This document shows, piece after piece, positions 13,528 to 31,651 of a stretch of DNA of 50,615 nt (position 1 is its first letter; each line of letters opens with the position of its first letter). A program made the position numbers and the translations under genes. The notes beneath the pieces are model-generated. The model ran no database searches, was not told where the DNA came from, and saw only the letters and a list, made by a program, of their open reading frames with translations. This DNA is from Lachnospiraceae bacterium (GTDB lineage: Bacteria; Bacillota; Clostridia; Lachnospirales; Lachnospiraceae): positions 1 through 50,615 of the forward strand of contig JAFUKJ010000089.1 in the NCBI GenBank assembly GCA_017467805.1, given 5' to 3'.

Positions 13528-13533
13528 TCGTTG

Positions 13534-13840: not shown

Positions 13841-13860
13841 ATGGTATAAGAGGTGGCTAA

Positions 13861-15411
13861 GTGAGAAGGAAAAAACAATGTGCTTTACTTATAGCAGTTA
13901 CTTTTTTGTTAAGTGCTTGTGGTCAAAGTGATAAAGCTAATTTAACTAATGGAACAATGGAAACAGTTAGCGTAGAAGAAGAGGCAGTTCCGAAAGAGCT
14001 GGCTACCTATAGCTGGGAGGACAGTATGGAATACGAAGCAGAGGAAGGAACAATGCTTGGTGGTGCATCTGTGAAGAGTGGAACGGATTGCAGCTATGTC
14101 GAGGGCTTCGCACAGGATGGAGATGGCCTGGAGGTTAAGATTCAGATAACTGAGTCGGGCTTTTATGATATTAATGTTATCAGCAAGAGCGCTGATGGCG
14201 GAAGTAAAGAGAATTACCTGTTGGTAGATGGTGAGTCTATGGGAACCGTGCAGGTAGAGGGAAGAGAATTTACAGATTCGATTTCGAGAAGAGTCTATAT
14301 GGAAGCTGGAGAGCATACAGTAGCAATTATGAAGTATTGGGGCTGGATACATATAGATAAGCTTCAGGTGAAGCAGTCTGATGAGCTTGATGATGCAAGA
14401 TTTGATATAGAGCCAGTATTGGTAAATTCGAATGCAACAGAGAATACAAAGAGATTAATGACATATCTTTGTGATATATATGGAACAGATATCCTGTCAG
14501 GTCAGTATTGTGACGGCGGAATGTTTGGCCACGAGAATGCAACGATTTGGAAGACAACAGGAGGCAAGTATCCTGCAATCTTAGGCTTGGATATGATAGA
14601 GTACACACCTTCGAGAGTGGCAAATGGCAGCAGCTCTCAGGCAGTTGAGTATGCAATTGAGTATTGGGAGAAGGGCGGTATCGTAACCTTCTGCTGGCAC
14701 TGGAATGCACCTGAGAAATATTTGACTGGTCAGTGGTATTCAGGCTTCTATAAAGAGTATACCAATATTAATCTTGCTAAGATTATGAATGGTGAAGACC
14801 AGGAAGGCTATGATTTACTGATGGCAGATATAGATGCGATAGCACAACAGCTTCTGAAGCTGCAGGAGGCAGGCGTTCCGATTCTTTGGAGACCATTGCA
14901 TGAGGCAAGTGGCGGATGGTTCTGGTGGGGAGCATCAGGAGCGGATGCCTATAAAGAACTTTATGTATTGTTATATGAGAAGCTAACCAATGAATATGGC
15001 TTGAATAATCTCATCTGGGTATGGAACGGACAGGATAAGGACTGGTACCCAGGAGATGAATATGTAGACATCATTGGTGAGGATATTTATCCTGGCGAGA
15101 AGGTATATACAGCGCAAACTTCTAAGTATTTAGAGGTGCTTGATTATACAGATGCTAAGAAGATGATTGTGCTTTCGGAGAACGGATGCTTATTTGACCC
15201 TGACTTGGCAATCAGAGATGGTGCTATGTGGGGATACTTTGGAACCTGGGGTGGTGAGTTTGTTTCTACCTCACAGGAACTATATCTTTATTCAGAGCAA
15301 TATACAGAGGAAAGCATGCTGAAGAAGGTATATGAACATGAACATGTAATTACAAGAGATGAGCTACCCGATATTAAGAACTATCCGTTACGAGAGGAAC
15401 AGCAACAGTAA
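13861..15411 (+). CDS. GH26 endo-beta-mannanase lipoprotein with N-terminal CBM-like domain
   Basis: The GTG start is supported by AGAGGTGG upstream. The 516-residue product has a lipobox LSAC (Cys20), then a beta-sandwich of about 120 residues starting YEAEEGTMLGG, typical of CBM35-like modules. The catalytic domain runs from about 185 to 500. Acid/base E348 lies in WRPLHEASGGWFWWG and nucleophile E440 in VLSENG, both standard GH26 landmarks. It should cut internal beta-1,4-mannosidic bonds at the cell surface. It heads the operon that continues with the transporter genes; the next gene starts 21 bases on. Another GH26 specificity cannot be excluded, but GH130 and esterase neighbours favour mannan. 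Confidence 0.9.
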   Translation: MRRKKQCALLIAVTFLLSACGQSDKANLTNGTMETVSVEEEAVPKELATYSWEDSMEYEAEEGTMLGGASVKSGTDCSYVEGFAQDGDGLEVKIQITESGFYDINVISKSADGGSKENYLLVDGESMGTVQVEGREFTDSISRRVYMEAGEHTVAIMKYWGWIHIDKLQVKQSDELDDARFDIEPVLVNSNATENTKRLMTYLCDIYGTDILSGQYCDGGMFGHENATIWKTTGGKYPAILGLDMIEYTPSRVANGSSSQAVEYAIEYWEKGGIVTFCWHWNAPEKYLTGQWYSGFYKEYTNINLAKIMNGEDQEGYDLLMADIDAIAQQLLKLQEAGVPILWRPLHEASGGWFWWGASGADAYKELYVLLYEKLTNEYGLNNLIWVWNGQDKDWYPGDEYVDIIGEDIYPGEKVYTAQTSKYLEVLDYTDAKKMIVLSENGCLFDPDLAIRDGAMWGYFGTWGGEFVSTSQELYLYSEQYTEESMLKKVYEHEHVITRDELPDIKNYPLREEQQQ

Positions 15412-15432
15412 TAGAAAGGCAAGGTCGTATAT

Positions 15433-18400
15433 ATGAAATCAAAGCAGATAATAGCATTGCTTTTTGCAACAGCCTTAGTCGTAGAGTCGATGCCTTGGGG
15501 TGCGTCTACTGTGCAGGCTGCTACAGAGAAGACACAAGAGGAATATGAGGATCTGGTTGGTACATATTCAATAGATGAAAGTATACCTTCTTATAATGAG
15601 TATATTTCCATTTATCCCCAGGTATTTCCAGAAGAAGAATATCGAATCGAAGCAGCGTCTTATGTAAGGTATGAAGAAGCTGGCGTGGCGGCAACACCTG
15701 AGATTTATGAAGCTTATGAAGGTGTGCCGAACGGAAAGGCAGCTGTACTTACCTCAGAGGAGGCACTGATAGAGTATGATTTTACAATTGATGCAGCGGG
15801 CTACTATGATATGTCGCTGGTATATTATCCGATAGAGGGTAAGGCATCAGAAATACAACGTTCCTTCTTTATAGATGGAGAGATTCCTTATGGCGAACTG
15901 GCTTTGGTGGAGTTCAATCGAATCTGGGGTAATGAGGTTACAGAGTTTATCACGGATGAGAATGGTATCCTTGTGAAGAACTGGGAAACGGATAATCAGG
16001 GAAATGAAGTAAGACCATATACAGTAGAGACTCCTGAATGGGTAGAAACTTATCTGTATGACAGTAACGGTTATGTGATTTCTCCGTTATCTGTTTATCT
16101 GGAGGCTGGTGAGCATACGATTACAATTATGTCGCAGAAAGAGCCGATGCTCTTAAGCGAGATTGTATTGAATAACAGTGATGAGGTACAGGATTACGCA
16201 ACAGTGAAGAGTACAAAGGATTCGGAAGGTGCTACTGCAACAAGCGGCGTGAATGTCAGAATCGAGGCAGAGAATACCAATAAGACATCATCACAGATGC
16301 TTTATCCAAGACAGGACCAGTCATCTCCTGCAGTATATCCGTCAAGTCCTAAGGTGTTATTGAACAATACCATAGGTGGAACCTCATGGCAGAATGCAGG
16401 ACAGTGGATAGAATGGGAATTTGAAGTACCTGAAAGTGGATATTATAACGTTTCTACATATTGCAAACAGAACTTTGTAAGAGGTATTGAGGTTTGTAGA
16501 AGAATTACCATTGATGGAGAGGTTCCTTTTGAAGAATTGAGTGATTACGGTTTTGCATATAAGCAGACCTGGAGAGAAGAGATTCTTTCAGATGAGAATG
16601 GCAATCCATATGAGATTTACTTAGAAGCAGGAACACATACACTTCGTATGGAAGTGGTACTTGGTGATATGGCAGATATTATCAGTCAGGTACAGTCCTG
16701 CGTACAGCAGTTGAATGCAATCTATCGTTCGGTTATTTACATCACAGGTGTAGCACCTGATAAATACCGTGACTACCAGATTGAAGCAAGTCTTCCTAAT
16801 CTGGAAGGACAGTTGATTGCGGTAAGAGAAGATTTGCAGGTGGCTGTAGATGCATTGAAGATAACAGCGGGAACAAACAGTGATAAGCTTACTGTTTTGA
16901 ATACAATGAACGACCAGCTTGATGAGCTGATTGAAGACCAAGAGAGATTTACAGAAGTTATTTCCTCCTACAAAACAAATGTCAGAGCCTGCGGTAACTG
17001 GATTACTCAGGTTCTGGCGCAACCGTTACAGTTAGACAGAATCAATATCTACTCTGCTGACAGCAAGACAGAGGTAGAAGGTGATGGATGGCTTGCAGCG
17101 GCAGGATATGAGATACAGAGACTGTTCTATTCCTTCATCGTAGATTACAACCAGATTGGTAATGTGGTTGAGGATGAGGAGACAGCATTAACACTTTGGG
17201 TTGGTACAGGACGTGACCAGGCAAATGTTATTAAGTCATTAATTGACGAGAGATTTACCAATGAAACAGGCATTAATGTAAATGTTCAGCTGGTAGATAT
17301 GAATACACTTCTTCGTGCAACACTTGCAGGAGAAGGACCTGATATCGCAATTCAGGTTGCCAATACCAACGGTATTGCAGGTGCGGTATTGAATACAGGT
17401 AATGATACACCTGTTAACTACGGACTTAGAAATGCAGTATTGGATTTATCGCAGTTTGACGATTTTGAAGAAATTACAGAGCGTTTCTCAGAGAGCGCAC
17501 TTGTACCGTTTACCTTTGATGGTGCAACCTACGCACTTCCTGAGACACAGACCTTCCCAATGATGTTCTATCGTAAGGATATCCTGGCAGAGATTGGCTT
17601 AGAGGTACCAACGACTTGGGATGAGGTTAAGGTAGCTATGACAGTATTAAGTAAGAACCAGATGGAGTTTGGTATGCTACCGAATGAGCAGACCTTTGCG
17701 ATGCTTCTTTTCCAAAATGGTGGAGAGTACTACTCAGAGAACGGTGACCGCTCTATGTTAGATTCTGATATTGCAGTAAGCACCTTTAAGGAATATTGCG
17801 AATATTACACAGATTATAAGCTGGATAAAGCGACAAGTGTAGAGGAGAGATTCCGTACAGGTGAGTGTCCGATTATTATTTCGGATTATACGACCTACAA
17901 CAACTTGCAGGTATCTGCACCTGATATTCAGGGATTGTGGGAGTTCACTGTAGTTCCAGGTGTGGAGCAGGAGGATGGAACCATCAATCATGCGACAGGA
18001 AGTACAGGACTTGCAGACTTTATCATGGCAGATACAGAGTATCCAGAAGAGTGTTGGGAGTTCCTTAAGTGGTGGACCAGTGCAGACATCCAGACCATAT
18101 ATGGTAGAGAGATGGAGAGTCTGATGGGTGCCAGTGCAAGAGTTGCAACAGCTAACTTAGAGGCATTTGGTAATCTGGCATGGCCTGTAAGTGACTACAA
18201 GGCGATTATGGAGCAGTTCGAGCAGGTAGAGGGTATTCCTCAGGTTCCTGGTGGATATTATTCATGGCGTAATGTAAACAACGCGTTCTATACGGTGACA
18301 ACACCTGCATCTGATACAGGACACGACATGATGGCAACACCAAGAGAAGAACTGATGGATAAGGTATTGTATATCAATGCAGAGATTGATTATAAGAGAG

Positions 18401-18444
18401 AAGAGTTTGGTTTGCCTCTGGCAGACGATGAGACTATAGAGTAA
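15433..18444 (+). CDS. Giant solute-binding protein fused to CBM-like domains
   Basis: The 1003-residue protein has a Sec signal peptide ending near VQAATE and no lipobox cysteine. Residues about 70-255 and 273-414 are two CBM35-like beta-sandwich domains (each with YYDMS/YYNVS strands, IDGE and an EAGEHT/EAGTHT motif). Residues 415-580 are mostly helical. From about 583 to 1000 is a family 1 sugar solute-binding domain (LTLWVGTGRDQ at its start; MFYRKDILAEIGLEVPTTWDE). Standard solute-binding proteins are about 430-550 residues and, in Gram-positives, lipid-anchored. Here the binding domain is C-terminal and no wall anchor is seen. The two permease genes directly downstream support a transport role; CBM domains may hold it to polysaccharide or wall. 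Confidence 0.8.
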   Translation: MKSKQIIALLFATALVVESMPWGASTVQAATEKTQEEYEDLVGTYSIDESIPSYNEYISIYPQVFPEEEYRIEAASYVRYEEAGVAATPEIYEAYEGVPNGKAAVLTSEEALIEYDFTIDAAGYYDMSLVYYPIEGKASEIQRSFFIDGEIPYGELALVEFNRIWGNEVTEFITDENGILVKNWETDNQGNEVRPYTVETPEWVETYLYDSNGYVISPLSVYLEAGEHTITIMSQKEPMLLSEIVLNNSDEVQDYATVKSTKDSEGATATSGVNVRIEAENTNKTSSQMLYPRQDQSSPAVYPSSPKVLLNNTIGGTSWQNAGQWIEWEFEVPESGYYNVSTYCKQNFVRGIEVCRRITIDGEVPFEELSDYGFAYKQTWREEILSDENGNPYEIYLEAGTHTLRMEVVLGDMADIISQVQSCVQQLNAIYRSVIYITGVAPDKYRDYQIEASLPNLEGQLIAVREDLQVAVDALKITAGTNSDKLTVLNTMNDQLDELIEDQERFTEVISSYKTNVRACGNWITQVLAQPLQLDRINIYSADSKTEVEGDGWLAAAGYEIQRLFYSFIVDYNQIGNVVEDEETALTLWVGTGRDQANVIKSLIDERFTNETGINVNVQLVDMNTLLRATLAGEGPDIAIQVANTNGIAGAVLNTGNDTPVNYGLRNAVLDLSQFDDFEEITERFSESALVPFTFDGATYALPETQTFPMMFYRKDILAEIGLEVPTTWDEVKVAMTVLSKNQMEFGMLPNEQTFAMLLFQNGGEYYSENGDRSMLDSDIAVSTFKEYCEYYTDYKLDKATSVEERFRTGECPIIISDYTTYNNLQVSAPDIQGLWEFTVVPGVEQEDGTINHATGSTGLADFIMADTEYPEECWEFLKWWTSADIQTIYGREMESLMGASARVATANLEAFGNLAWPVSDYKAIMEQFEQVEGIPQVPGGYYSWRNVNNAFYTVTTPASDTGHDMMATPREELMDKVLYINAEIDYKREEFGLPLADDETIE

Positions 18445-18457
18445 GGAGGGAAGCTAA

Positions 18458-19423
18458 GTGAAGGCAAAAGCAAAGAAAAATGCGGTAGATTTGTCAACGA
18501 TGACAGAAGCTGAGCAGATTGCCGCAAAGCAAAGAAAATTATCTTATCAGATAAAGAGAAACAAAGCTTCCTATTTGATGCTGGCACCATATTTTATACT
18601 GTTTTTCTTCTTTACAGTATTACCTGTATTGATGTCAGTTTGTTTAAGCTTTACACACTTTAATATGTTGGAAATGCCGACCTTTGTTGGTTGGAAGAAC
18701 TATATTAAGTTATTTCTTGAGGATGATATCTTTATGATATCCCTCAAGAATACACTGATTTTTGCAGTAGTAACAGGACCTGTCAGCTATTTGCTGTGTC
18801 TGTTGTTTGCATGGATTATCAATGAGTTCAAGGGAAAGCTTCGAGCAGTTCTTACATTGATTTTCTACGCGCCATCCATTTGTGGTAATGCCTATATGGT
18901 ATGGAACCTGATTTTAACAGGTGACAGATATGGTTACTTAAACGGTCTTTTACTAAAGCTTGATATTTTAAATGAGCCAAAGCTTTGGATGCAGACAGAG
19001 AAGTATATTCTCCCAGTGTTAATCGTAGTTCAGTTATGGTTATCACTTGGTACAGGATTCCTGTCATTTATTGCAGGTCTTCAGACTGTTGATAAGAGCT
19101 TATACGAGGCAGCAGCCTTAGATGGTGTTAAGAACCGCTGGCAGGAGTTATGGCATGTAACACTTCCAGCCATGAAGCCGCAGTTAATGTTCGGTGCGGT
19201 TATGCAGATTACACAGTCCTTTGCAGTAGCGGATATCTCTATTAACTTAGCAGGTAACCCATCCGTAAACTACGCAGGTGCAACTGTTGTAACACACCTT
19301 TTGGACTATGGCTCAACAAGATTTGATATGGGTTATGCTTCAGCAATTGCAACAGTACTGTTCATGCTGATGGTAGGAACGAATAAATTAGTACAGAAGG
19401 TACTGGGAAGGGTAGGTGAATAA
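18458..19423 (+). CDS. ABC sugar permease, MalF/UgpA type
   Basis: A GTG start follows AAGGAGGG, 13 bases after the solute-binding gene. The 321-residue membrane protein has six predicted transmembrane helices and the permease EAA loop, here EAAALDGVKNRWQELWHVTLP, which docks the ATPase. A charged cytoplasmic N-terminus of about 40 residues precedes the first helix (YLMLAPYFILFFFF). It pairs with the next gene to form the membrane channel of a carbohydrate importer. No ATPase is encoded in the window; in many Firmicutes a shared MsmK-like ATPase serves several such importers. Confidence 0.92.
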   Translation: MKAKAKKNAVDLSTMTEAEQIAAKQRKLSYQIKRNKASYLMLAPYFILFFFFTVLPVLMSVCLSFTHFNMLEMPTFVGWKNYIKLFLEDDIFMISLKNTLIFAVVTGPVSYLLCLLFAWIINEFKGKLRAVLTLIFYAPSICGNAYMVWNLILTGDRYGYLNGLLLKLDILNEPKLWMQTEKYILPVLIVVQLWLSLGTGFLSFIAGLQTVDKSLYEAAALDGVKNRWQELWHVTLPAMKPQLMFGAVMQITQSFAVADISINLAGNPSVNYAGATVVTHLLDYGSTRFDMGYASAIATVLFMLMVGTNKLVQKVLGRVGE

Positions 19424-19424
19424 C

Positions 19425-20306
19425 ATGGCAGGAAAGCCGAAGAGACGTCTCTTTAAGAGAAAGCAGAAGCAGTTGAATCGTTCCATGGCAGGTAATACCT
19501 TGTTATTTACTATAATGATTATCTGCGGAATATTTATGGCGCTGCCATTGGTTATGATTGTCAACAATGCATTAAAGCCGCTTGATGAGATATACCAGTT
19601 CCCGCCAAAGATTTTCGTTAGAAATCCTACATTGGAGAACTTCACAGACTTATTTACATTGATGAATGACACCTGGGTACCTTTTTCAAGATATTTCCTG
19701 AATACGGTAATTATTACAGGCGGTGGTATGGTGGGACACGTAATTGTGGCATCCCTTGCAGCTTATCCGCTTGCTAAGCATAAGTTCCCAGGTAAGAGTA
19801 TTCTGTTCAGCATGGTAGTGTTATCCATGATGTTCTCATGGACGGTTACACAGATTCCACAGTATACCATTATTTCATGGTTGGGTATTAATAATACCTA
19901 TGCGGCACTGATTCTTCCAGCATGGTCCTTTGGTATGGGACTTTACCTGATGAAGCAGTTCATGGAGCAGCTTCCTGATTCGCTGATGGAGTCGGCAAGA
20001 CTGGATGGAGCGAGTGAGTGGCATATATTCTGGAAAATCGTAATGCCGAACGTTAAGCCTGCATGGCTGACATTGGCAATCTTCCAGTTCCAGCAGATGT
20101 GGGGTAATACAGGAAGTCTCTTCTTAAGAGATGAGGAGTTAAAGCCTTTACAGTTTGCACTACAGCAGATTACAGCAGGTGGTGTGGCAAGAGCAGGCGC
20201 GGCAGCAGCAGTTACCTTTATTATTGCAGCTGTACCGATTACATTCTTCCTGATTTGTCAGAGCAATGTCTTAGAGACAATGACAACCTCCGGTATGAAG
20301 GATTAA
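19425..20306 (+). CDS. ABC sugar permease, MalG/UgpE type
   Basis: I choose ATG 19425 (MAGKPKRRLFKRK), seven or eight bases after GGTAGG; a GTG at 19416 is possible. The 293-residue protein has a basic N-terminus, six helices and an EAA-type loop (ESARLDGASEWHIFWKIVMP). The start and the upstream stop are one base apart, indicating tight coupling with the MalF-type partner. It should form the second half of the channel that takes substrate from the CBM-fused binding protein. Confidence 0.92.
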   Translation: MAGKPKRRLFKRKQKQLNRSMAGNTLLFTIMIICGIFMALPLVMIVNNALKPLDEIYQFPPKIFVRNPTLENFTDLFTLMNDTWVPFSRYFLNTVIITGGGMVGHVIVASLAAYPLAKHKFPGKSILFSMVVLSMMFSWTVTQIPQYTIISWLGINNTYAALILPAWSFGMGLYLMKQFMEQLPDSLMESARLDGASEWHIFWKIVMPNVKPAWLTLAIFQFQQMWGNTGSLFLRDEELKPLQFALQQITAGGVARAGAAAAVTFIIAAVPITFFLICQSNVLETMTTSGMKD

Positions 20307-20321
20307 AGGGAGGACGGATTG

Positions 20322-21803
20322 ATGAAGAAAAGATTACATCAGCTTGCAGCACTGGTATTTGCAGGAGTGATTCTGGCAACAGGAATGCCAGGTGCAGTGC
20401 AGGCAACGACATTACCTTATACAACATATAATTACGATTATCGCGAGGATATCGTATATACACCTGCTGCATATATTCCGTTAGCTTCTGTAGCAGGAAG
20501 CAGCTTCACCTATGAAGGCGAGACAATCGGGGATTTTGCATCACCTCAGGATTTGTGTAAGTCACCTGATGGAGATATCTATGTAGCAGATACGGGGAAT
20601 AACAGAATCGTTGTACTGGACAGTGCAATGAAAACTGTTAAGAAGATTATTACAAGTTTTGATAACAACGGAACAGCAGATAACTTTAATTCACCATACG
20701 GTGTAGCGGTATCGGAGTCGAATCAGCTTTATATCGCAGATTCACAGAATCATAGAATTGTCGTATTGAATGAAGACAATTCTTTAGTAAAGATTGTTGA
20801 GAATCCAACCTCTGAGGTATTAGAGGAAGGATATGTATTTACTCCTTTGAAGGTATCTGTAGACTATGCAGACCGTATCTACTGTATCGCACAGAAGATG
20901 TTCGAGGGTATCATGGTGTTCGAGACAAACGGCGAGTTTACAGGCTTCTTTGGAACGATTAACGTAGAGATTACTCTTTGGGAGAAGTTCTGGAGAAAGA
21001 TAGCTTCCAAGGAGGAGCGTTCTAACTCACAGTTATTCATTCCTACAGAGTTTACAGGAATTGACATTGACCCTGACGGCTTCGTATATGCTTCTAATAT
21101 TGATTCCTCAGGAATACAGGGAGTAAGAAGACTGAATCCAAAGGGAGAGGACGTTATTAAGAAGGGCGTAAATGAAAATGTAGGTGGTGACCTTCAGATA
21201 GACGGAACCACAGATTATGCAGGTCCTTCCCAGTTTACGGATGTTGTTTATCGACATGATGGAATTTATTCCTGTCTTGACAGAAAGAGAGGAAGAATCT
21301 TCACATATGACCACGAAGGAAATCTTCTCTATATCTTTGGTGGACTTGGTACACAGAAGGGAACCTTCACAATGCCTGTAGCCATTGAAGAGGTAAATAA
21401 TACAATCGTAGTACTGGATGCAGCAACAGGTGAGCTTTGCAGCTTTGAAGTTACAGAGTATGGACGTTTGATTAATGAAGCTGTAGCACTTCGTTACGAT
21501 GGAGATGAGGCACTTGCGGTAGCGCTTTGGCAGAGAGTATTGGAGCTGGATGAGAATAATGAGCTTGCTAATACAGGTATTGGTAAGGCATATCTGACAA
21601 GCGGTGACTATATCGAAGCCATGAAATATTTGGAAATCGGAATGGCAAGAACCTACTACTCTACAGCATTCAAGCGTTATAGAAATGAAGTTCTGACAGA
21701 GAATGCGAGCGTATTCCTGACAGGTGTTGTGGTAGTAGTGGCAGCGGTTGTTGTTACGAAAAAAGTAAGAAAGAAAAAGAAGGGAGGCGATATCGATGAG
21801 TAA
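20322..21803 (+). CDS. NHL-repeat beta-propeller membrane protein with TPR-like segment
   Basis: ATG 20322 is preceded by GGGAGGA; a TTG one codon earlier is possible. The 493-residue product has a signal peptide (to about VQA), then six NHL-type blades between about residues 55 and 380 (examples GDIYVADTGNNRIVVLD and NQLYIADSQNHRIVVLN). A TPR-like pair of helices follows (EALAVALWQRVLELDENNE), then a C-terminal transmembrane helix and a short lysine-rich cytoplasmic tail. It is thus an extracellular propeller anchored by its C-terminus. It overlaps the YIP1-family gene by 8 bases. NHL propellers bind proteins, RNA or sugars; the role here is unknown. Its conserved place among permease and DUF5696 genes suggests a part in glycan handling or transporter assembly. 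Confidence 0.8.
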   Translation: MKKRLHQLAALVFAGVILATGMPGAVQATTLPYTTYNYDYREDIVYTPAAYIPLASVAGSSFTYEGETIGDFASPQDLCKSPDGDIYVADTGNNRIVVLDSAMKTVKKIITSFDNNGTADNFNSPYGVAVSESNQLYIADSQNHRIVVLNEDNSLVKIVENPTSEVLEEGYVFTPLKVSVDYADRIYCIAQKMFEGIMVFETNGEFTGFFGTINVEITLWEKFWRKIASKEERSNSQLFIPTEFTGIDIDPDGFVYASNIDSSGIQGVRRLNPKGEDVIKKGVNENVGGDLQIDGTTDYAGPSQFTDVVYRHDGIYSCLDRKRGRIFTYDHEGNLLYIFGGLGTQKGTFTMPVAIEEVNNTIVVLDAATGELCSFEVTEYGRLINEAVALRYDGDEALAVALWQRVLELDENNELANTGIGKAYLTSGDYIEAMKYLEIGMARTYYSTAFKRYRNEVLTENASVFLTGVVVVVAAVVVTKKVRKKKKGGDIDE

Positions 21804-22428
21804 GGCATTTTCAAAGGAAAAGCTTCAATACATGTTATACACGATTTCGCACCCTATGGACGGATTTTACTGGATTCGTCATGCAGAGAAGGGAAGCGTA
21901 CCATTAGCGATTGTGCTGGTTGTTATCTTTTCCATCTGCTTTACAGCGAATCGTCTGATGGCAAGCTTTATTGTAAATGATTTGGACCCAAGAAGCGTAG
22001 ACAGTCTCTATGAGCTGATGGGCGTCCTGTTATTCTACCTGTTAATCTGCGTAGGAAACTGGGCAGTTACCTGTCTGATGGAGGGTGAGGGAAGATTAAA
22101 GGATATCGCGATTGCGGTTGGTTATTCCACATTTCCAATCAGCGTAGTTCTTTTTATCGGTACCATTCTTAGTCAGGCAGTGGCAAACGATGAAGCAGCA
22201 TTTTATACCATGTTACTTGGAGTTGGTATTGCGTATGGCTTGATTATGATGCTGATTGGTATCATGCAGGTTCATAACTATACATTAGGAAAGACCTTGA
22301 TTACAGTGTTCTTAACCTTTATCGCGATGCTGATTATCATTTTCGTGGTGCTTCTGGTAACAAATATGCTTAGTATGGTAGTGGTTTTCTTTAAGAGTAT
22401 TTATACAGAGATTATATTCTGGTCGTAA
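21796..22428 (+). CDS. YIP1-family integral membrane protein
   Basis: This 210-residue protein has about five predicted transmembrane helices and the layout of the bacterial YIP1 family: a short cytoplasmic N-terminus with a HPMDGFYWIRHAEKGS motif, then closely packed helices with ICVGNWAVTCLMEGEG and GYSTFPISV segments. Its start lies inside the end of the NHL gene (8-base overlap), so the two are translationally coupled. The next gene follows after 13 bases. In eukaryotes Yip1 proteins act in vesicle traffic; the bacterial role is not established. A scaffold between the propeller and the DUF5696 protein is a guess from gene order. Confidence 0.72.
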   Translation: MSKAFSKEKLQYMLYTISHPMDGFYWIRHAEKGSVPLAIVLVVIFSICFTANRLMASFIVNDLDPRSVDSLYELMGVLLFYLLICVGNWAVTCLMEGEGRLKDIAIAVGYSTFPISVVLFIGTILSQAVANDEAAFYTMLLGVGIAYGLIMMLIGIMQVHNYTLGKTLITVFLTFIAMLIIIFVVLLVTNMLSMVVVFFKSIYTEIIFWS

Positions 22429-22441
22429 GGGGGCATAGGTA

Positions 22442-25051
22442 ATGAGTAAAGTTAAGAAAAATAAAATAAAGCGCCCTATGAGCCTTACAAAGCGTATCCT
22501 GCTGATTATCCTTGCGATTGCGGCGGTGGCAGGTGTGAGCTATTTAGGATATTATCTGGTGCATTATACCTTTTATGACCGATATGAGGATTTCCTGACT
22601 TCAAGCTATGAGTACGAGACAGGAAATGAATTCGAAGCGGTAAAGGAAGCTAATCCTGATGTAGCAGATATGGTGCTTGTAACTGAGAATGAAAGCTTAA
22701 AGCTTTATACAAATACAGAGACAGCGGTTGTGGCTGTGTACGATAAGAGAAACGGAGAGACAATTTATAGCAATCCAGTAGATGCAGATGATGATGCGGT
22801 GGCAAATGGAACAAACATGAATTACTTAAAGTCACAGTTCATTCTTCAGTACTATAACAAGGATGTAAAGAGTGGAACCTTTGATTCCTACAGCATGGCA
22901 GTTGAAAGAGGTCAGCTGGAGGCAGAGGCGATTGAAAATGGTATCAGATATATCTACACAGTAGGTGATTTTGAAACCAGTAAGACAGGAAATCTTCCTA
23001 TTTACATCATGCAGGAGAAGTTAGACGCAGTAGCAGCAACTCTTACAGAGAAGGAAGCAACCTCACTTTACAGATACTATGGTGCAAGTGAAACTGTACC
23101 TGGTATGTTAGAACTTAATGGTGTTGTACAGAAGAATGTTAAGACCATTGCCAAGGTAAAGGGCTGGTTTGAGGCGGCTGGCTGGACTGATGCAGATTAC
23201 GAGGAGCAGATGGCACTTGCAGGAGTAGAAGTACAGATGCCGATTTCCTTCAAGATTCCATTGGAATACAGATTGGAAGAGGATGGCTTAAAGGTATCCA
23301 TTCCTGTATCGGGTATTGAAGAGTTTGGCGGTGGTTCCATCTACAGAATCCAGTTGCTTAGATACATGGCAGCAGGCGGAGCAGATGAGGAAGGTTATCT
23401 TGTAGTACCGAATGGTTCTGGCTCTATTATCAATTTCAATAATGGAAAGCTTAAGGCAGCCAACTATTCACAGTACATATATGATATGGACCCATTGGCA
23501 GTAAATTATACAACAACAGATATTGCTGACGCAGCAAGACTTCCATTATTCGGAATCTGCAGAGAAAACAGCAGCGTGCTGGCAGTGATTGAAGATGGTA
23601 AGACACTTGCAAACCTTACAGCTGGTATCTCAGGTGTATACAACGAGTACAATTACGTTTATCCAACCTTTGTACTCAGAACAGCAGATAACTTATCAAT
23701 GTTCGGAGATGCAATTTCAGATGTATATGTATTAGAGCCTGATATGTATGATGCAAATCTTACTGTAAGATACAGCTTCTTAACAGAAGAGAATAAGGGT
23801 TATGCAGGACTTGCAAATTACTATCGTGGAAAGCTGATTGAGGACGGCGTATTAACAGCAGGAAATGCTTCGGGAGATATTCCTTTCTACTACGATATTA
23901 TCGGCGGTGTAAGAGAAACTTCTCATTTCCTTGGTGTACAGTACCTTAGAAACTTCGCAATGACTACCTTTGAGGAGGCGGAAGCGATTTCTAACGAGCT
24001 TGCAGACCTCGGAATTACGAAGCAGGTAATGAATTATCAGGGCTGGATGAATGAAGGCTATTACCATGATGCGGTAGATTCCTTAAGAGTAACCTCTAAG
24101 CTTGGCGGCGTGAAAGGCTTGGAGTCCTTGAACAACACTGTTGAGGCAAATGGCGGACGCTTTTATGCAGATGTTGCATTACAGAAGGTAACCTACGCAG
24201 ATGACGGCTTTAACTACGAGGCAGAGGGCGCAAGATATTACGGTGCAGGATATGTAGCAGGCTTTGGTCTGATTAATCCTACAACACTTCGTAATACCTC
24301 AGGACTTGGATATATGGAGAATCTTTACGATATCTTATCTCCAAAGTATCTGCCAAGATATGTAGAGAAGTTCACAAATAAGGTTGGCAAGTATGATATT
24401 GATGGTATTGCACTTAGAGATTTAGGTAATTACTTAAGCTCTGATAAGAAGCGTACCAATATCATTGACAGAGAAGAAGCACTTGAAATCGTGTTGGGAC
24501 AGTGGGAAACACTGGAAGGCTCAGGCAAGAACCTGATGGCTGATGCAGCAAATGATTACAGCTTCGGATATTTAACGGATATTATTAATGCTCCGATTTC
24601 AGACAATGAGTACTTTATCGTAGATGAGGATATTCCGTTATATGAAATGATTATTCACGGATGTATTGATTATTCGACATCACTCCTTAACTTCTATGAT
24701 GCTGAGGATATGACAGGAATTGTTTTAAATATGATTGAGTACGGTGCAGCTCCACATTATGTGTTTACATGGGAAGAGTCTAGCGAGATGAAGAAGACAG
24801 CACTCAACCGCTACTATGCTACAACTTATGAGGTATGGAAGAACGAGGCTGTAGAAATCTACGGACAGGTAAATGAAGCACTTAAGAATGTAAGCGGCGC
24901 ACAGATGGTTAATCACGAAATCCTTGAAGAGGGAGTTCGCAAGGTAAGCTATGATAATGGCGTAACCATTTATTTGAATTATAACGATGAAGTAAAAACA
25001 GCTGACGGAGTAGAGATTCTGCCAGGAAGCTACAGAATGGAGGGAAATTAA
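22442..25051 (+). CDS. Large membrane-anchored DUF5696-type protein, possible glycosidase fold
   Basis: The 869-residue protein has a basic cytoplasmic N-terminus, one transmembrane helix (about 18-42) and an extracellular part of about 825 residues. The first half (about 70-470) is beta-rich. From about 480 the pattern resembles a TIM barrel: repeated strand-helix units, an acidic strand DGIALRDLG (D654, D660), a VDEDIPLYE motif (D728, E729, D730, E735), and a final beta module (YLNYNDEV). This is the pattern of DUF5696 proteins, which I recall from transporter-linked clusters. Glycosidase-like barrels with two carboxylates at strand ends look similar, so an enzyme on glycans is plausible, but no catalytic pair is proven. 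It is tightly spaced with YIP1 and the second permease pair. Confidence 0.65.
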   Translation: MSKVKKNKIKRPMSLTKRILLIILAIAAVAGVSYLGYYLVHYTFYDRYEDFLTSSYEYETGNEFEAVKEANPDVADMVLVTENESLKLYTNTETAVVAVYDKRNGETIYSNPVDADDDAVANGTNMNYLKSQFILQYYNKDVKSGTFDSYSMAVERGQLEAEAIENGIRYIYTVGDFETSKTGNLPIYIMQEKLDAVAATLTEKEATSLYRYYGASETVPGMLELNGVVQKNVKTIAKVKGWFEAAGWTDADYEEQMALAGVEVQMPISFKIPLEYRLEEDGLKVSIPVSGIEEFGGGSIYRIQLLRYMAAGGADEEGYLVVPNGSGSIINFNNGKLKAANYSQYIYDMDPLAVNYTTTDIADAARLPLFGICRENSSVLAVIEDGKTLANLTAGISGVYNEYNYVYPTFVLRTADNLSMFGDAISDVYVLEPDMYDANLTVRYSFLTEENKGYAGLANYYRGKLIEDGVLTAGNASGDIPFYYDIIGGVRETSHFLGVQYLRNFAMTTFEEAEAISNELADLGITKQVMNYQGWMNEGYYHDAVDSLRVTSKLGGVKGLESLNNTVEANGGRFYADVALQKVTYADDGFNYEAEGARYYGAGYVAGFGLINPTTLRNTSGLGYMENLYDILSPKYLPRYVEKFTNKVGKYDIDGIALRDLGNYLSSDKKRTNIIDREEALEIVLGQWETLEGSGKNLMADAANDYSFGYLTDIINAPISDNEYFIVDEDIPLYEMIIHGCIDYSTSLLNFYDAEDMTGIVLNMIEYGAAPHYVFTWEESSEMKKTALNRYYATTYEVWKNEAVEIYGQVNEALKNVSGAQMVNHEILEEGVRKVSYDNGVTIYLNYNDEVKTADGVEILPGSYRMEGN

Positions 25052-25987
25052 TTGAGTAAAGTAAAGACAAAGAAAATGACCCTTGTTCAGAAGCGTATGA
25101 GAAGTGGATATATGTTTATCCTGCCTTGGCTGTTCGGATTCCTTGTATTCTATGTCCGCTCATTGATTATGACGGTTCAGTTCTCCTTCTCGGAGCTTAC
25201 AATGGACCCGAATGTAGGCGGCTATGCATTGGAATCAGTTGGATTTGATAATTTTATTTATGCTTTTAGAGCACATGCAACTTTTAAACAGGTATTAACA
25301 ACTTCCATTGGAAACATGCTGGTAGATGTACCGTTGATTACCTTCTTCAGCTTATTCATGGCAATGTTGTTAAATAAGAAATTCCCAGGAAGATTCCTTG
25401 TTCGAGCAATTTTCTTCCTGCCGATTATCTTCAACTCCAGTGCGATTCAGTCGGCGATGGAGTTATCAGAGGCAATGATGTCAGGTGGTATTTCTACTAT
25501 GTCATCTGAGCTTTCAAGCGGCGCAGGAACGGGAGCAGGCGCGGTAGTCAGCATTGATTACTTCGTGGATTTGTTCATGGATTTGGGATTACCGATGGCA
25601 TTACTTGATTATGTAATGGCAGCGGTGCAGAGAATTAACGATATTATCTCTGCTTCGGGAGTACAGATTATTATCTTCATAGCAGCATTACAGTCAATCC
25701 CAGGTTCCCTTTACGAGGTAGCTAAGATTGAGGGTGCTACAGGCTATGAGACCTTCTGGAAGATTACCTTCCCAATGGTAATGCCACACATTATTACGAA
25801 CGTGGTATACACTATCGTAGACAGCTTTACAGAGAGTGAGGTTGTTACACTTGCATATAATACAGCATTTAAGCAGTTCAATTATGGATTGAGTTCAGTA
25901 TTCAGTTTGGTTAGTACGATTATCACCTGCGTAATTCTCGTTGTGGTGGTTGGCTTTATCCAGAAGAGAACATTCTACTATAACTAA
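25052..25987 (+). CDS. ABC sugar permease, MalF type, with extended periplasmic-side loop
   Basis: The TTG start follows GGAGGG and directly abuts the DUF5696 stop. The 311-residue protein has six helices and an EAA loop (EVAKIEGATGYETFWKITFP). Between helices it carries an insertion of roughly 60 residues rich in Ser, Gly and Met (about residues 135-200), longer than in typical family members. It is the first half of a second permease pair, separate in sequence from the pair at 18458-20306. Its partner follows after a 93-base gap holding two hairpins. Confidence 0.9.
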   Translation: MSKVKTKKMTLVQKRMRSGYMFILPWLFGFLVFYVRSLIMTVQFSFSELTMDPNVGGYALESVGFDNFIYAFRAHATFKQVLTTSIGNMLVDVPLITFFSLFMAMLLNKKFPGRFLVRAIFFLPIIFNSSAIQSAMELSEAMMSGGISTMSSELSSGAGTGAGAVVSIDYFVDLFMDLGLPMALLDYVMAAVQRINDIISASGVQIIIFIAALQSIPGSLYEVAKIEGATGYETFWKITFPMVMPHIITNVVYTIVDSFTESEVVTLAYNTAFKQFNYGLSSVFSLVSTIITCVILVVVVGFIQKRTFYYN

Positions 25988-25992
25988 GAGCA

Positions 25993-26053
25993 ATGAAAAA
26001 AATCCTTAAACCGAAGATTTTTTTCATGGAAATTTGTGCAAAGCACAAATTTC
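25993..26053 (+). ncRNA. Two-hairpin intergenic RNA-like element, copy 1
   Basis: Hairpin one: 12-bp stem ATGAAAAAAATC (25993-26004)/GATTTTTTTCAT (26016-26027) with 11-base loop CTTAAACCGAA. Hairpin two, one base later: 11-bp stem GAAATTTGTGC (26029-26039)/GCACAAATTTC (26043-26053) with an AAA loop. It lies between two cotranscribed permease genes and shows loop similarity and stem covariation with the element at 31543-31609. The role may be RNA stability or processing within the operon. Confidence 0.6.
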
Positions 26054-26080
26054 GAGTATTAATAAAAAGGAGGGGTTTTA

Positions 26081-27055
26081 ATGAATCAATATATCGAAAG
26101 TTTTAAGGCCACTCTTAGGGATAGTGACCAGCGTAAGGGATTATTCAATGATGTGAAGAACCTTGCGGTAAATATCGTAAGATTTGCCATTATCGTTGGT
26201 GTGTGTTATGTGATATTATCGCCGATTATCGGTATCTTCGTGAATTCGATTTCATCAGACAGAGATGCTTATAATCCAATGGTATATATTCTTCCACACA
26301 ATCCGACCTTGGAAAGATATCAGTTGGTATGGGAGAGAATTGAGTATCTTCCTACCATGGCGAAGGATTTGCTTTATACAGTATCTCTTATGGCGATTCA
26401 AATTCTGGTTTGCTCCATGGTAGGCTATGGATTTGCAAGATTTGAGTTTCCATTTAAGAAGTTATTATTTGGATGTGTTGTAGTGATGATTGTTATTCCT
26501 TCACACACTATCATGCTTCCAATTTACATGACCTTTAAAGACTTTGACCCATTAGGACTTTGTACTTTGATATTTGGCGATTCGCTTAATCTCATGGGTA
26601 GTCCGATACCGATGTACATTATGACAGTTTTTGGATGTGGATTGAGGTCAGGACTTTATATTTATATTTTTAATCAGTTCTTCAGAGGACTTCCAAAGGA
26701 AATCGAGGAAGCGGCTTTGGTGGACGGATGTGGAACATGGTATACATACTTCCGCATCATGTTAGTAAACGCTATGCCTTCTGTCATTACAGTAGCGGTA
26801 TTCTCACTGGTATGGCAGTTCAATGATACTTTCTATGCAAAGCTGTTCTTAATCAGCGAAGACATAGTAATCAGTAATAAGATTTCGTCTTTACAGGCGA
26901 CAATCGCAAATACAGACCAGATTCTGGACACAACCATTCAGGAGTTGTATCTGGATGCAGGTATCATGCTTGTCGTATTGCCGATTGTATTGATTTACAT
27001 TTTATTACAGAGACACTTCATTGAGGGTGTAGAACGTAGCGGTATTGTAGGGTAA
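26081..27055 (+). CDS. ABC sugar permease, MalG type
   Basis: The ATG follows AAGGAGGGG. The 324-residue protein has six helices and an EAA loop (EEAALVDGCGTWYTYFRIML). It completes the second permease pair with the gene at 25052. The downstream genes encode a repeat-containing lipoprotein and a lipid-anchored solute-binding protein, which probably belong to this importer. No ATPase gene is linked. Confidence 0.9.
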   Translation: MNQYIESFKATLRDSDQRKGLFNDVKNLAVNIVRFAIIVGVCYVILSPIIGIFVNSISSDRDAYNPMVYILPHNPTLERYQLVWERIEYLPTMAKDLLYTVSLMAIQILVCSMVGYGFARFEFPFKKLLFGCVVVMIVIPSHTIMLPIYMTFKDFDPLGLCTLIFGDSLNLMGSPIPMYIMTVFGCGLRSGLYIYIFNQFFRGLPKEIEEAALVDGCGTWYTYFRIMLVNAMPSVITVAVFSLVWQFNDTFYAKLFLISEDIVISNKISSLQATIANTDQILDTTIQELYLDAGIMLVVLPIVLIYILLQRHFIEGVERSGIVG

Positions 27056-27091
27056 TAAAATTTTAAACAAAGTATAAGGAGGAAGAAAAAG

Positions 27092-28978
27092 TTGAAAGGA
27101 AAGAAATTCTTAGCAAGCGTTCTTACGGGAACAATGGTGCTGTCATTGACAGCGTGCGGTGGCACAGAACAGACATCCACAACAACGGAAGACACTACAG
27201 TAAAGGAAACTGTAGAGCAGCAGGCAGAAACACCTGCAACAACAGAAGCAGAAGTGAAAGAGGAAGTGAAGGAAGAGGTAGCAGAGGTAGTACCAGCCAG
27301 CATCGATTTCGAAGATGGCAATATGGGCTTCGTGTCTCTTTACACACAGCCAGCCAATGCAGATAATTCAGAATTATCAATTGTTGACCACAACGGCAGC
27401 AAGGCTCTTTATATTAAGAACATTGATGCAAAGGTACCTTATGTAGCATTTGATATTTCAAGCATGCTTGGTGCAAAGGTTGCAGATGTAGCAAAGATTG
27501 AAATGACAATTACAACTGAATATCCAACAGGTAAGTTCAGCTCATGTTCAGGAAATATCGTTTCATGGTATGGTGCTGACTTAACAGAAGCAAAGGATGC
27601 ATGGGCAGTATACATGGAGAAGAAGAATCCTAACAAGGCAATCGCCGAGATTGAGGATGCAGAGAAGTTTGTAGCAGATGCAGGAAACATCATTATGCTT
27701 ACAATTGATACAGATAATGGTGTAGCAGATGGCAACGGAAATGTAAGTCTTTATGTAGATGATATTCGTTTCTTAGATGCTTCAGGTAATTTAATTGATG
27801 CTGATTCTTCAGTTGCATTCGTAGCTCCTGACGGATTTGAAAGCTCAGGTAAGGATTTATCTAACCTTGCAGTTGTTAACGGCGGTGTTGCTGTAGAAGG
27901 CTTTGAGGTGAAGGCAGATGCATGGGCTCAGGCAGGTGTTGATTTACCTCAGGAAGTTCTTGATGCATTAGTACCTGGATCAGTAATCGAAATCGAGTAC
28001 AAGAGTGAATCAGGTAACATGTGGGTTGTAATGCCTGGCGCACAGGTTGGTTGGACACGAGTAGGTGACGGTAACAACGGTAAGGCATACATCAACGGTT
28101 CAGGAAATATCGCACAGATTACATATGAGCAGATTGCTCAGTTCTGCGGCGAGGATAAGTCTACATGGGGAACAACCTTACAGTGTGAGTCTGACTCAGC
28201 TTGGGAAGTATATAGTGTAACAATTGGTCAGAAGAGTCCTGTTATTACATGCTCCAATGCAGTAGAGGTTCCTGACTTTGCAAAGAAGGCAGATGGCTGG
28301 GTACAGGATGGTGTTGAGATGCCTCAGGAAGTAATTGATGCATTAGTACCAGGTTCAGTTCTTGAGATTGATTATACAAGTGAGTCAGGAAATATGTGGA
28401 TTGTAATGCCATGGGCAACAGCAGGCTGGATGAGAGTCGGCGATGGCAACAATGGTAAGTCTGTATGCTACAACGGCAAGTGCTATGTAACCTATGAGCA
28501 GATTGCAGAGTTCTGTGGTGAAGATAAGTCAACATGGGGAGCAATGCTTCAGTGTGAATCAGATTCCGCTTGGGAAGTATACGGAGTAAGAGTTGGTACA
28601 TATGGCGAGATGCAGATGGTAAGCGGTGCTACAGATATCGAAGGCTTTGCAAAGAAGGCAGATGGCTGGGCACAGGATGGTGTTGAGCTTACACCTGAGC
28701 AGCAGGCATTATTAGTACCAGGTTCTGTTATTACAGTTAAGTATACAAGTGAAACAGGCAATATGTGGATTGTAATGCCATGGGCAACAGCAGGCTGGAT
28801 GAGAGTCGGTGATGGTAACAACGGTAAGGCAGCTTGCAGCAACGGTGTATGCCAGGTAACCTATGAGCAGATTGCAGAGTTCTGTGGTGAAGATCCAAGT
28901 ACATGGGGCGCAATGCTTCAGTGTGAGTCTGACTCAGCTTGGGAAGTATACAGTGTTTCAATTGGAACAGCAAACTAA
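27092..28978 (+). CDS. Surface lipoprotein with three repeated beta modules
   Basis: The TTG start follows AAGGAGG. The 628-residue product has a lipobox LTAC, a Thr/Glu-rich linker, and a beta domain (about 68-245) ending in a VSLYVDDIRFLD strand typical of carbohydrate-binding jelly rolls. Three modules follow at about 270-385, 393-508 and 515-628. Each has the core ESGNMWVVMP or a close variant, then GW-x-RVGDGNNGK, TYEQIAEFCGED, STWG and LQCESDSAWEVY. Modules two and three are nearly identical over long DNA stretches at a 369-base offset, indicating recent duplication. The tryptophan-rich repeat suggests a glycan-binding array. I do not recognise the module as a named CBM family. Confidence 0.75.
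   Translation: MKGKKFLASVLTGTMVLSLTACGGTEQTSTTTEDTTVKETVEQQAETPATTEAEVKEEVKEEVAEVVPASIDFEDGNMGFVSLYTQPANADNSELSIVDHNGSKALYIKNIDAKVPYVAFDISSMLGAKVADVAKIEMTITTEYPTGKFSSCSGNIVSWYGADLTEAKDAWAVYMEKKNPNKAIAEIEDAEKFVADAGNIIMLTIDTDNGVADGNGNVSLYVDDIRFLDASGNLIDADSSVAFVAPDGFESSGKDLSNLAVVNGGVAVEGFEVKADAWAQAGVDLPQEVLDALVPGSVIEIEYKSESGNMWVVMPGAQVGWTRVGDGNNGKAYINGSGNIAQITYEQIAQFCGEDKSTWGTTLQCESDSAWEVYSVTIGQKSPVITCSNAVEVPDFAKKADGWVQDGVEMPQEVIDALVPGSVLEIDYTSESGNMWIVMPWATAGWMRVGDGNNGKSVCYNGKCYVTYEQIAEFCGEDKSTWGAMLQCESDSAWEVYGVRVGTYGEMQMVSGATDIEGFAKKADGWAQDGVELTPEQQALLVPGSVITVKYTSETGNMWIVMPWATAGWMRVGDGNNGKAACSNGVCQVTYEQIAEFCGEDPSTWGAMLQCESDSAWEVYSVSIGTAN
28280..28975 (+). repeat. In-frame duplicated modules (about 369-bp period) in lipoprotein gene
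   Basis: Matching stretches such as GCAAAGAAGGCAGATGGCTG occur at 28280 and 28649, 369 bases (123 codons) apart, and the segment coding for the MPWATAGWMRVGDGNNGK core is nearly identical in both copies. A more diverged first copy lies upstream from about 27900. Confidence 0.85.
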
Positions 28979-29004
28979 TTTGTATAAATTGGAGGGAATA
29001 GAAG

Positions 29005-30495
29005 ATGATTAATAAGAGAAAAGCAATCGCACTCGGACTGGCAACAGTTATGACAGCATCCGTTGTTGGATGTGGCAGCAGTGACACAACAACAAGCACA
29101 GATACAGCTACAACAGATACAACTAAGACAGAGCAGAGCACAACTGCTGATAAGGCAGATACAAGCACAGATACAAGTACAGATACAAGTGCTTCTGACG
29201 AGATGAGAACACTTACAATTGGTTCTTGGTGGACACAGTACTATGACAGCTCACATGAAGCAGTAGAAGATGATCCTTCTTACTCTGGTCTTGATGTAGC
29301 ACATCTTAAGTTTGATAATGTTGCAAAGATTGAGGAGAAGTATAATTGTGAGTTCTATTGGCAGAACCTTACATATGCAGGAACAATGGAGTCAATCAAC
29401 AACTCTATTTTAGCTGGAGACCCAGACTGTGATATCTACTTAGTAGAGCTTTCATTCGGTATCCCAGCTGCATTAAACGGTCTTGCAACAGACTTAAAGA
29501 CAGTTTTACCTGCAGATGATGATCTTTTCACAACACAGCAGAATATCAAGTATCTTGACCTTGGCGACGGCAAGGCTTGCATCCTTAAGAGAGTAGAGGC
29601 TGCTTCAACAGTAGAGGCAACATATCCATTAGCATTCAACAAGCAGATGTTAGAGGATAACAACTTAGAGGATCCAAGAGAGCTTTATGCAAGAGGCGAG
29701 TGGACATGGGATAAGTTCATCGAGTACTGCCAGAAGTTAACACAGGATACAGACGGTGACGGACAGATTGATCAGTACGGCTACTGCGGATTCATTTCTG
29801 AGACATTTGAGCAGTTAATGATGAGTAACGGCGGTAACGTAGCTTCAGGTACTAAGGAAGAGCTTTCTTCTACAGAGACAGGTGAAGCATTACAGATGAT
29901 TTCTGATATGTATAACACATACAATGTTTGCTATCCATATGACTTCGAGAGTGGAGATGACTCTACAACAATGAGAGGTCAGTATCGTGAGGGTAACATC
30001 GGCTTCTTCCCATGTGCAGCATGGATTGCAGGTGACAAGGCTGACTACGATTACAACGGTGCAAACGGAACAACATTATCATTTGATACAGTATACGTTC
30101 AGTGGCCTGTAGGACCTTCAGGTAACCAGGAGACAAACGCTGGTAAGGTATCAGCTGGTGAGTTCTATATCATTCCAGCAGGTGTAGAAGACCCTAAGAC
30201 AGTTTACAACGTATTATATGATATGTGGAACTGGTATGATGGCGATACATCTATCCGTGATGATGAAGAGACATTGTTCTGGTGGTATGCAGTTACTGCT
30301 AAGGATGAGCAGCTTCAGAATGAGAACTTCGACGTTATGTTTGATGTAGGAAGCAGAGAGACATTCGAGCTTTGGAACAGCTTAGGTATCAGCTATGACT
30401 TCTCTGGATTAATCAAGGGTGAGGTTACAGCAGCTCAGTTCCAGGAGACATACAAGAATCAGATTCAGGATGCACTTGATGCATACTTTGGATAA
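29005..30495 (+). CDS. Sugar ABC transporter solute-binding lipoprotein
   Basis: This 496-residue protein has a lipoprotein signal (VVGC), a long Thr/Ser/Asp linker to about residue 65, and a family 1 solute-binding fold. Landmarks are TLTIGSWWTQYYDSS, a WTWDKFIEYCQKLTQDTDGDGQIDQYG segment (aromatic and Asp-rich loop seen in many sugar-binding proteins), and FFPCAAWIAGD. It should capture oligosaccharides and deliver them to the permease pair at 25052-27055. A GGAGGG site precedes the ATG. The GH130 gene follows after 22 bases. Substrate is inferred as manno-oligosaccharides from the neighbours. Confidence 0.9.
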   Translation: MINKRKAIALGLATVMTASVVGCGSSDTTTSTDTATTDTTKTEQSTTADKADTSTDTSTDTSASDEMRTLTIGSWWTQYYDSSHEAVEDDPSYSGLDVAHLKFDNVAKIEEKYNCEFYWQNLTYAGTMESINNSILAGDPDCDIYLVELSFGIPAALNGLATDLKTVLPADDDLFTTQQNIKYLDLGDGKACILKRVEAASTVEATYPLAFNKQMLEDNNLEDPRELYARGEWTWDKFIEYCQKLTQDTDGDGQIDQYGYCGFISETFEQLMMSNGGNVASGTKEELSSTETGEALQMISDMYNTYNVCYPYDFESGDDSTTMRGQYREGNIGFFPCAAWIAGDKADYDYNGANGTTLSFDTVYVQWPVGPSGNQETNAGKVSAGEFYIIPAGVEDPKTVYNVLYDMWNWYDGDTSIRDDEETLFWWYAVTAKDEQLQNENFDVMFDVGSRETFELWNSLGISYDFSGLIKGEVTAAQFQETYKNQIQDALDAYFG

Positions 30496-30517
30496 GAAAG
30501 GCTAGGTTTTTTTAGTA

Positions 30518-31540: not shown

Positions 31541-31542
31541 CA

Positions 31543-31609
31543 GCACACAAAATCCATATACGGAAGATTTTGTGTGCACAAATATCGTTGACTTCGTAAA
31601 CGATATTTG
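31543..31609 (+). ncRNA. Two-hairpin intergenic RNA-like element, copy 2
   Basis: Hairpin one: perfect 12-bp stem GCACACAAAATC (31543-31554)/GATTTTGTGTGC (31566-31577) with 11-base loop CATATACGGAA. Hairpin two: 11-bp stem CAAATATCGTT (31579-31589)/AACGATATTTG (31599-31609). Architecture, stem lengths and loop sequence match the element at 25993-26053, while five of twelve stem pairs differ with full compensation. No T-run follows, so it is not a standard terminator. Confidence 0.6.
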
Positions 31610-31651
31610 AGGGGGCTTGGAGAATAAATTCTAGGATAAAAGGGTGTTCGT

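Follow-up and report, generated by a model that had tools for sequence, protein, structure and literature searches.

A putative DUF5696 pseudo-glycosidase with NHL and YIP1 partners in a conserved Bacillota gene block: a candidate accessory complex of glycan importers

Three tightly packed genes from a Lachnospiraceae bacterium, encoding an NHL propeller protein, a YIP1-family membrane protein and a DUF5696 protein, lie between two pairs of ATP-binding cassette (ABC) permeases and raise the question of what such a trio does beside sugar transporters. They were found in a stretch of 50,615 nucleotides, contig JAFUKJ010000089.1 of assembly GCA_017467805.1, and "the window" below means that whole stretch. 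To our knowledge neither DUF5696 nor this branch of YIP1 has an established function in bacteria. The original prediction saw in the trio a previously undescribed membrane system working with glycan importers, and our analysis supports a conserved membrane system tied to such importers, for which we found no earlier description in the open-access literature searched. Gene order, gene fusion, a shared phyletic pattern, a GH129 fold that has lost its catalytic pair, modules resembling carbohydrate-binding modules (CBMs) and the usual absence of a lipobox in one partner are the observations from which we start. With a probability of about one half, we read the trio as an accessory complex firmly associated with ABC glycan importers of the CUT1 type, in which a membrane-anchored pseudo-glycosidase would act as receptor platform.

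A fixed gene block around the trio

The trio is part of a fixed gene block with the order SBPL-PA1-PA2-NHL-YIP1-DUF5696-PB1-PB2, referred to below as the module. In the window the block reads:

15433..18444, + strand: SBPL, a solute-binding protein of 1003 residues with a signal peptide and without a lipobox; CBM6/35-like regions at about residues 64-254 and 268-414, a helical bundle at 413-528 and the solute-binding protein (SBP) fold at 583-993
18458..19423, + strand: PA1, ABC permease of the first pair (BPD_transp_1)
19416..20306, + strand: PA2, ABC permease of the first pair (BPD_transp_1)
20322..21803, + strand: NHL propeller protein with a weak TPR segment and a C-terminal membrane helix (Pfam NHL 2.1e-16; 59.4 bits, cut-off 20)
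21796..22428, + strand: YIP1-family membrane protein with five helices (Pfam Yip1 42.5 bits, cut-off 28.6)
22442..25051, + strand: DUF5696 protein of 869 residues, an N-terminal anchor followed by an ectodomain of GH129 fold (Pfam 1e-192; 642 bits, cut-off 25.6)
25052..25987, + strand: PB1, ABC permease of the second pair (BPD_transp_1)
26081..27055, + strand: PB2, ABC permease of the second pair (BPD_transp_1)

The three central genes were recovered at the positions first proposed for them, with NHL and YIP1 overlapping by 8 bases and a 13-base gap between YIP1 and DUF5696. PB1 starts at the base right after the end of DUF5696, and the NHL frame opens at a TTG at 20319, with an ATG at 20322. 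A hydropathy scan agreed with the membrane topology that had been claimed, giving a signal segment and a C-terminal helix (residues 458-484) for NHL, five hydrophobic segments for YIP1 and a single N-terminal segment (residues 12-41) for DUF5696. The flanking permease pairs (18458-20306 and 25052-27055) were also as described. The TPR segment of NHL, which scores under the Pfam cut-off, had gone unmentioned, as had the solute-binding proteins at 15433-18444 and 29005-30495 and a CBM65 lipoprotein at 27092-28978.

Recurrence of the arrangement was followed in a close set of 80 relatives with flanks of up to 10 kb and in a broad set of 60 loci, the profiles for annotating both being derived from the close set. 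Forty of the broad loci came from a class-wide DUF5696 search and were taken by rank of score down to about 436 bits; contigs that were short or cut at an edge were skipped, as was a copy interrupted by an internal stop. The other 20 were chosen among the full-length places of a phylum-wide search. The arrangement is repeated across the loci of both sets, far beyond chance. YIP1 and PB1 were found in all 60 broad loci, NHL and PB2 in 59 each, PA1 in 56, PA2 and SBPL in 55 each, and a protein like the second solute-binding protein SBP2 in 29; the gaps for NHL (L178) and PB2 (L171, a contig end) fall at stretch ends. The close set gave 77 loci with YIP1, 73 with NHL and 77 with PB1, every absence being at a stretch end. 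The neighbourhood survey thus bears out the proposed association with transporters: the trio is accompanied by permeases in every stretch of sufficient length, and PB1 is never separated from it in any locus with room.

In every one of the 60 broad loci PB1 follows DUF5696 at a distance of no more than 200 bp. YIP1 lies at most 200 bp upstream of DUF5696 in 57, the exceptions being L228 and L229, where the distance is about 300 bp, and L175, where DUF5696 is interrupted. This tie to PB1, together with Yip1 family membership, would also suit a factor for permease assembly or quality control, in which YIP1 would serve membrane-protein placement in the way that eukaryotic Yip proteins serve vesicle traffic. 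Two of the three parts are, however, large and extracellular, which is unlikely for such a role, and ordinary CUT1 importers are not known to need such a factor; we consider this explanation very improbable.

The two halves of the block are not equally constant. The SBPL-PA half is mostly missing nearby in four broad loci (L214, L216, L217 and L221; a fifth is cut) and likewise in four of eight extra loci (L245-L248), the eight being drawn partly from genomes where loci of this kind had turned up. All eight loci that lack this half retain NHL-YIP1-DUF5696-PB1-PB2. NHL and YIP1 are encoded as one fused protein in 30 of the 60 broad loci and 6 of the 8 extra ones, and in none of the 80 close loci. 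The window's own genome holds three copies of the module, and in one of the other two (L089) NHL and YIP1 are fused.

The same coupling appears across genomes. DUF5696 scored over its cut-off in 26 of 299 genomes of the phylum, and a profile of the module YIP1 gave strong matches (at least 187 bits) in exactly the same 26, all others staying at or below 51 bits. A profile of the SBPL N-terminus was strong in 25 of these genomes; in the 26th, G354, the match was cut by an edge. It was also strong in two further genomes, G355 and G404, where the contig breaks off within PA1. Weaker, shorter proteins resembling the SBPL N-terminus occur in five genomes that belong to one other family. Among 14 control genomes two gave matches, none over the DUF5696 cut-off. 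The Pfam family PF18952 is heterogeneous, comprising module members, stand-alone proteins of about 570 residues and, as weak matches, DUF6259 proteins and proteins that by eye resemble GH13. Non-module matches were excluded from the module counts, and because of this mixture the class-wide tally of 57 of 196 genomes over the PF18952 cut-off is not a module count.

Several loci show variations of single components. In L175 two open reading frames (ORFs) on the opposite strand (263 and 498 residues), probably a mobile element, interrupt the gene for DUF5696. In L262 (2-7663, - strand) YIP1 is followed by a frame of at least 2554 residues that runs off the stretch; similarity to DUF5696 (positions 11-227 of 612) is confined to its residues 329-555, and no other Pfam match was seen at E 0.001. 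The NHL proteins of L143, L155 and L163 have about 910-920 residues (2736-2766 bp) rather than the usual 495 or so, and the extra sequence in L155 resembles, by eye, further propeller repeats inserted within the propeller. Separate proteins of about 450-545 residues resembling the SBPL N-terminal part, without an SBP domain, occur in L256, L258 and L261, all of one other family. Finally, the module seems to be multiplied in G292, G314, G333, G386 and G415 (2.2-3.0 Mb), each of which gave 8 to 10 strong module-YIP1 matches with no more than 10 candidates scored.

The altered active site of DUF5696

Could the DUF5696 protein be an enzyme? The structure model of the window protein (pLDDT 90.1) was used for fold searches, which showed the GH129 fold, a beta sandwich with a TIM barrel. 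The proposal that the C-terminal half is a TIM barrel of glycosidase type therefore holds. GH129 glycosidases (NagBb, 5WZP; ZgGH129, 5OPQ and 8RZK), which liberate alpha-linked GalNAc or anhydrogalactose, have this fold in common with DUF5696, and the GH101 endo-alpha-N-acetylgalactosaminidases are more distant kin.

Exact residue equivalence is based on a profile-to-profile alignment of the module DUF5696 proteins with nine stand-alone relatives. Window D660 aligns to Asp353 of these relatives and D701 to their Glu396, the Asp and the Glu being present in 9 of 9. The relatives in turn align to NagBb at E 2e-33, with their pair falling at chain positions 435 and 478. This agrees with the catalytic residues of NagBb, which we take to be D435 and E478. 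In a direct alignment of the module proteins with GH129 the nucleophile came out one residue off, and the acid/base site was again at D701. Four PF11308 (GH129) proteins keep the Asp/Glu pair in 4 of 4 cases.

Residues were counted over 109 module-type members, non-redundant at 70%, out of 180. Of these, 59 have Asp at position 660 and 11 have Glu at position 701, with both together in two. In the window's clade, the 89 of the 180 sequences that are at least 42% identical to the window protein, 88 have Asp at position 660. Position 701 is occupied by Asn 55 times, by Ser 19 times, by Asp seven times and never by Glu, so the full pair occurs in 0 of 89. By this alignment relatives outside the module keep the catalytic pair and nearly all members inside it lack the pair. 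The nine stand-alone loci carry no NHL, YIP1 or PB1 in the fetched stretches of 6 to 14.5 kb. Compared with GH129 enzymes, DUF5696 is without the catalytic Asp/Glu pair in 107 of 109 members, is membrane-anchored and is fixed in an importer operon.

Of the carboxylates originally named as catalytic candidates only D660 stood, as the position of the GH129 nucleophile. D654 is conserved in just 15 of 109 members, position 730 is Asp in 10 and Glu in 31, and position 735 is Glu in 29 and Gln in 73; an active enzyme working through D654, D730 and E735 was rejected on this lack of conservation. D728 is conserved in 92 of 109, yet the same Asp is found in all nine catalytically complete relatives, which speaks against a replacement catalytic group. 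Glu766 (100/109) likewise matches a residue present in 9 of 9 relatives, Trp535 (100/109) and Asn750 (109/109) match residues in 8 of 9, and Arg677 (104/109) matches an Arg in 6 of 9. Being shared with the stand-alone proteins, these five residues are largely family features. Asn704 (97/109) is typical of module members, with Tyr or Phe in its place in the stand-alone relatives.

These data allow for a DUF5696 that is still an enzyme with altered chemistry, using D660 as nucleophile with the acid/base Glu replaced or dispensed with, and that would trim or rearrange glycans at the mouth of the importer. The near-invariance of D660 in the window's clade, the conservation of D728, E766, W535 and R677, the retention of the entire GH129 architecture, the glycosidase genes nearby and the two members with both Asp and Glu, which might be active, all fit such an enzyme. 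However, the clade has mostly Asn or Ser at the acid/base position, 50 of the 109 members have a residue other than Asp at the nucleophile position although they belong to the same strictly conserved module, and D728 and E766, present in every full-pair relative, are not new catalytic groups. We regard an active DUF5696 as unlikely. Since the normal hydrolytic pair is absent, DUF5696 most likely binds glycan chains instead of cutting them.

Outside the module, stand-alone PF18952 proteins of about 570 residues (L231-L239, for example L238:1087-2790) have the full GH129-type Asp/Glu pair. From their sequences they look like uncharacterised active enzymes.

Permeases, surface proteins and glycan cargo

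All four permeases retain the coupling loop as judged by sequence pattern. An EAA-type loop was found in 128 of 128 PA2 proteins, in 128 of 129 PA1 proteins, where it has one extra residue, in 140 of 143 PB2 proteins, 78 of which have the closing Pro replaced and the next Pro four residues later, and in 143 of 146 PB1 proteins (127 under the strictest pattern). The PB1 count comes from a separate pattern because the final one catches some PB1 proteins at an unrelated earlier place; for PA1 and PB2 two earlier patterns, the first of them too strict, detected few loops and gave way to the final one. A degenerate second pair was rejected, as EAA-type loops were found in all four permeases. No ATPase was present among the 19 window genes scanned (7568-36053), and ABC_tran was rare in the flanks of other loci, with 3 of 114 in one batch and no entry among the 25 commonest families of the other. 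Two other contigs of the window's genome hold OB_MalK matches, and the reading frame of one match contains a stop.

Around the block the window carries genes for glycan-specific, accessory and regulatory parts:

12154..13470, + strand: GDSL/CE2-like esterase, a glycan-specific part (GDSL over cut-off, CE2_N below cut-off)
13861..15411, + strand: GH26 lipoprotein with CBM35, a glycan-specific part
27092..28978, + strand: accessory lipoprotein with CBM65 domains (CBM65_1 5.8e-67; lipobox in sequence)
29005..30495, + strand: SBP2, an ordinary lipoprotein solute-binding protein (SBP_bac_1; lipobox in sequence)
30518..31540, + strand: GH130 mannoside phosphorylase, a glycan-specific part
31652..32695, + strand: LacI-type regulator, the last gene ahead of a terminator-like hairpin

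From GH26 (13861) to LacI (32695) all genes lie on the same strand, and the hairpin after LacI on that strand (32695-32739) is the strongest in the scanned region 13400-32800. The GH26, esterase and GH130 genes expected near the trio are thus present, but the mannan-type specificity read from them did not carry over to other loci. We scanned 217 of 267 flanking ORFs of at least 220 residues, a survey that does not imply operon membership, and drew families from the 25 commonest of 102 and of 89 in the two batches. SBP_bac_1 was found in 38 of the 217, and the enzymes included GH26, GH10, GH9, GH43, GH5, GH3, GH106, GH42, GH130, alginate lyase and pectic acid lyase. A mannan-only system was rejected on this variety. 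The block stays constant while the neighbouring enzymes vary, which fits a general glycan-import device, and from these gene neighbourhoods the block looks like one.

Regulators near the loci also vary (LacI, AraC, response regulators), and no constant partner was seen. This bears on the idea that the trio is a sensor, its propeller and pseudo-glycosidase binding glycan and YIP1 signalling inwards to the importer or to gene expression. Inactive enzyme folds often are receptors, and NHL and TPR are generally known as interaction domains. A Pfam scan, however, revealed no signalling domain in the trio, and a changing set of regulators speaks against a sensor as well; we think it quite unlikely, though somewhat more probable than an assembly factor.

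SBPL differs from the other surface proteins in its anchoring. The first 60 residues of the window protein contain no Cys, and no lipobox-like motif was found in 117 of 125 SBPL homologues, the remaining eight including some with doubtful starts. The motif is present in 64 of 102 SBP2, 50 of 66 CBM65 and 39 of 62 GH26 proteins of the same loci. For both CBM-like modules of SBPL, profiles matched solved CBM-bearing enzymes; the window piece of module 2 has no Pfam match, and its 36 homologues gave CBM_35 in four and CBM_6 in three cases at E 0.01. The CBM assignment rests on these profile searches, as Foldseek with the whole SBPL covered the SBP half only among the listed matches.

In PMC12710961, CUT1 importers with a shared MsmK-type ATPase (for example Athe_2052-2054) are likewise described with a solute-binding protein, two permeases and no ATPase at the locus. 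Compared with that description the block adds a second permease pair, NHL, YIP1 and DUF5696, and its SBPL carries CBM-like modules while a lipobox is absent in most cases.

A proposed importer complex and its limits

How might these parts work together? NHL, with its propeller, weak TPR segment and C-terminal helix, and YIP1 would form a single membrane platform, since they are one polypeptide in half of the broad loci. NHL-YIP1 and DUF5696 may stand over the PB1-PB2 permeases as one complex, which probably also holds the unlipidated, CBM-bearing SBPL that would serve PA1-PA2. Surface enzymes such as GH26 would release long oligosaccharides, to be caught near the membrane by the SBPL CBMs and the DUF5696 pocket and handed to the PA and PB permeases. 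Import would be powered by a MalK-type ATPase encoded elsewhere, and GH130 would break the oligosaccharides down inside the cell.

A more far-reaching version, which we hold only tentatively, is a Bacillota glycan-import supercomplex in which the DUF5696 pseudo-glycosidase on an NHL-TPR-YIP1 platform joins the two permease pairs and SBPL, and in which glycan chains would be gripped by the altered site, where the window's clade has retained the Asp but not the Glu. It could then be a Gram-positive counterpart of SusCD. The Bacteroidota SusCD system is alike in working principle only, surface capture being coupled to import, and differs in membrane architecture.

Several points weigh against an accessory complex of this kind. 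Transport, complex formation and ligand are predictions, and gene order by itself would suit a sensor or an enzyme as well as an accessory subunit; nor do YIP1 and NHL by themselves give a mechanism. The absence of the SBPL-PA half beside some trios means that a joint PA-PB machine is not obligatory, and the extra locus L243 has no PB2 despite room for it. The retention of Asp660 in 88 of 89 clade members is not demanded by a purely structural role, and together with the two members that have both residues it leaves limited room for residual or unusual chemistry.

An ABC importer and a GH129 fold are known kinds, whereas their combination and strict coupling appear to be new. We found no open-access paper that mentions DUF5696, although most of the subscription literature lay outside the search and absence is not proven; judged by titles and the openings of abstracts, no open-access paper apparently describes the block. 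With the accessory-complex reading DUF5696 and this YIP1 branch gain a shared and testable role, and the importer of many Bacillota would include additional surface components, whose genes appear unconnected in standard annotation. If true, it would explain how Gram-positive bacteria retain long oligosaccharides beside the membrane and would provide a marker for such loci.

Two further features of the window lie upstream of the glycan cluster. A PocR-type hybrid sensor kinase with receiver and Hpt domains (7568-11267, - strand) adjoins a response regulator and is divergent from the cluster. Two tRNA-Leu (aag) genes, at 238-323 and 1682-1767, are separated by about 1.4 kb, and a single ORF (424-1581) lies in between.

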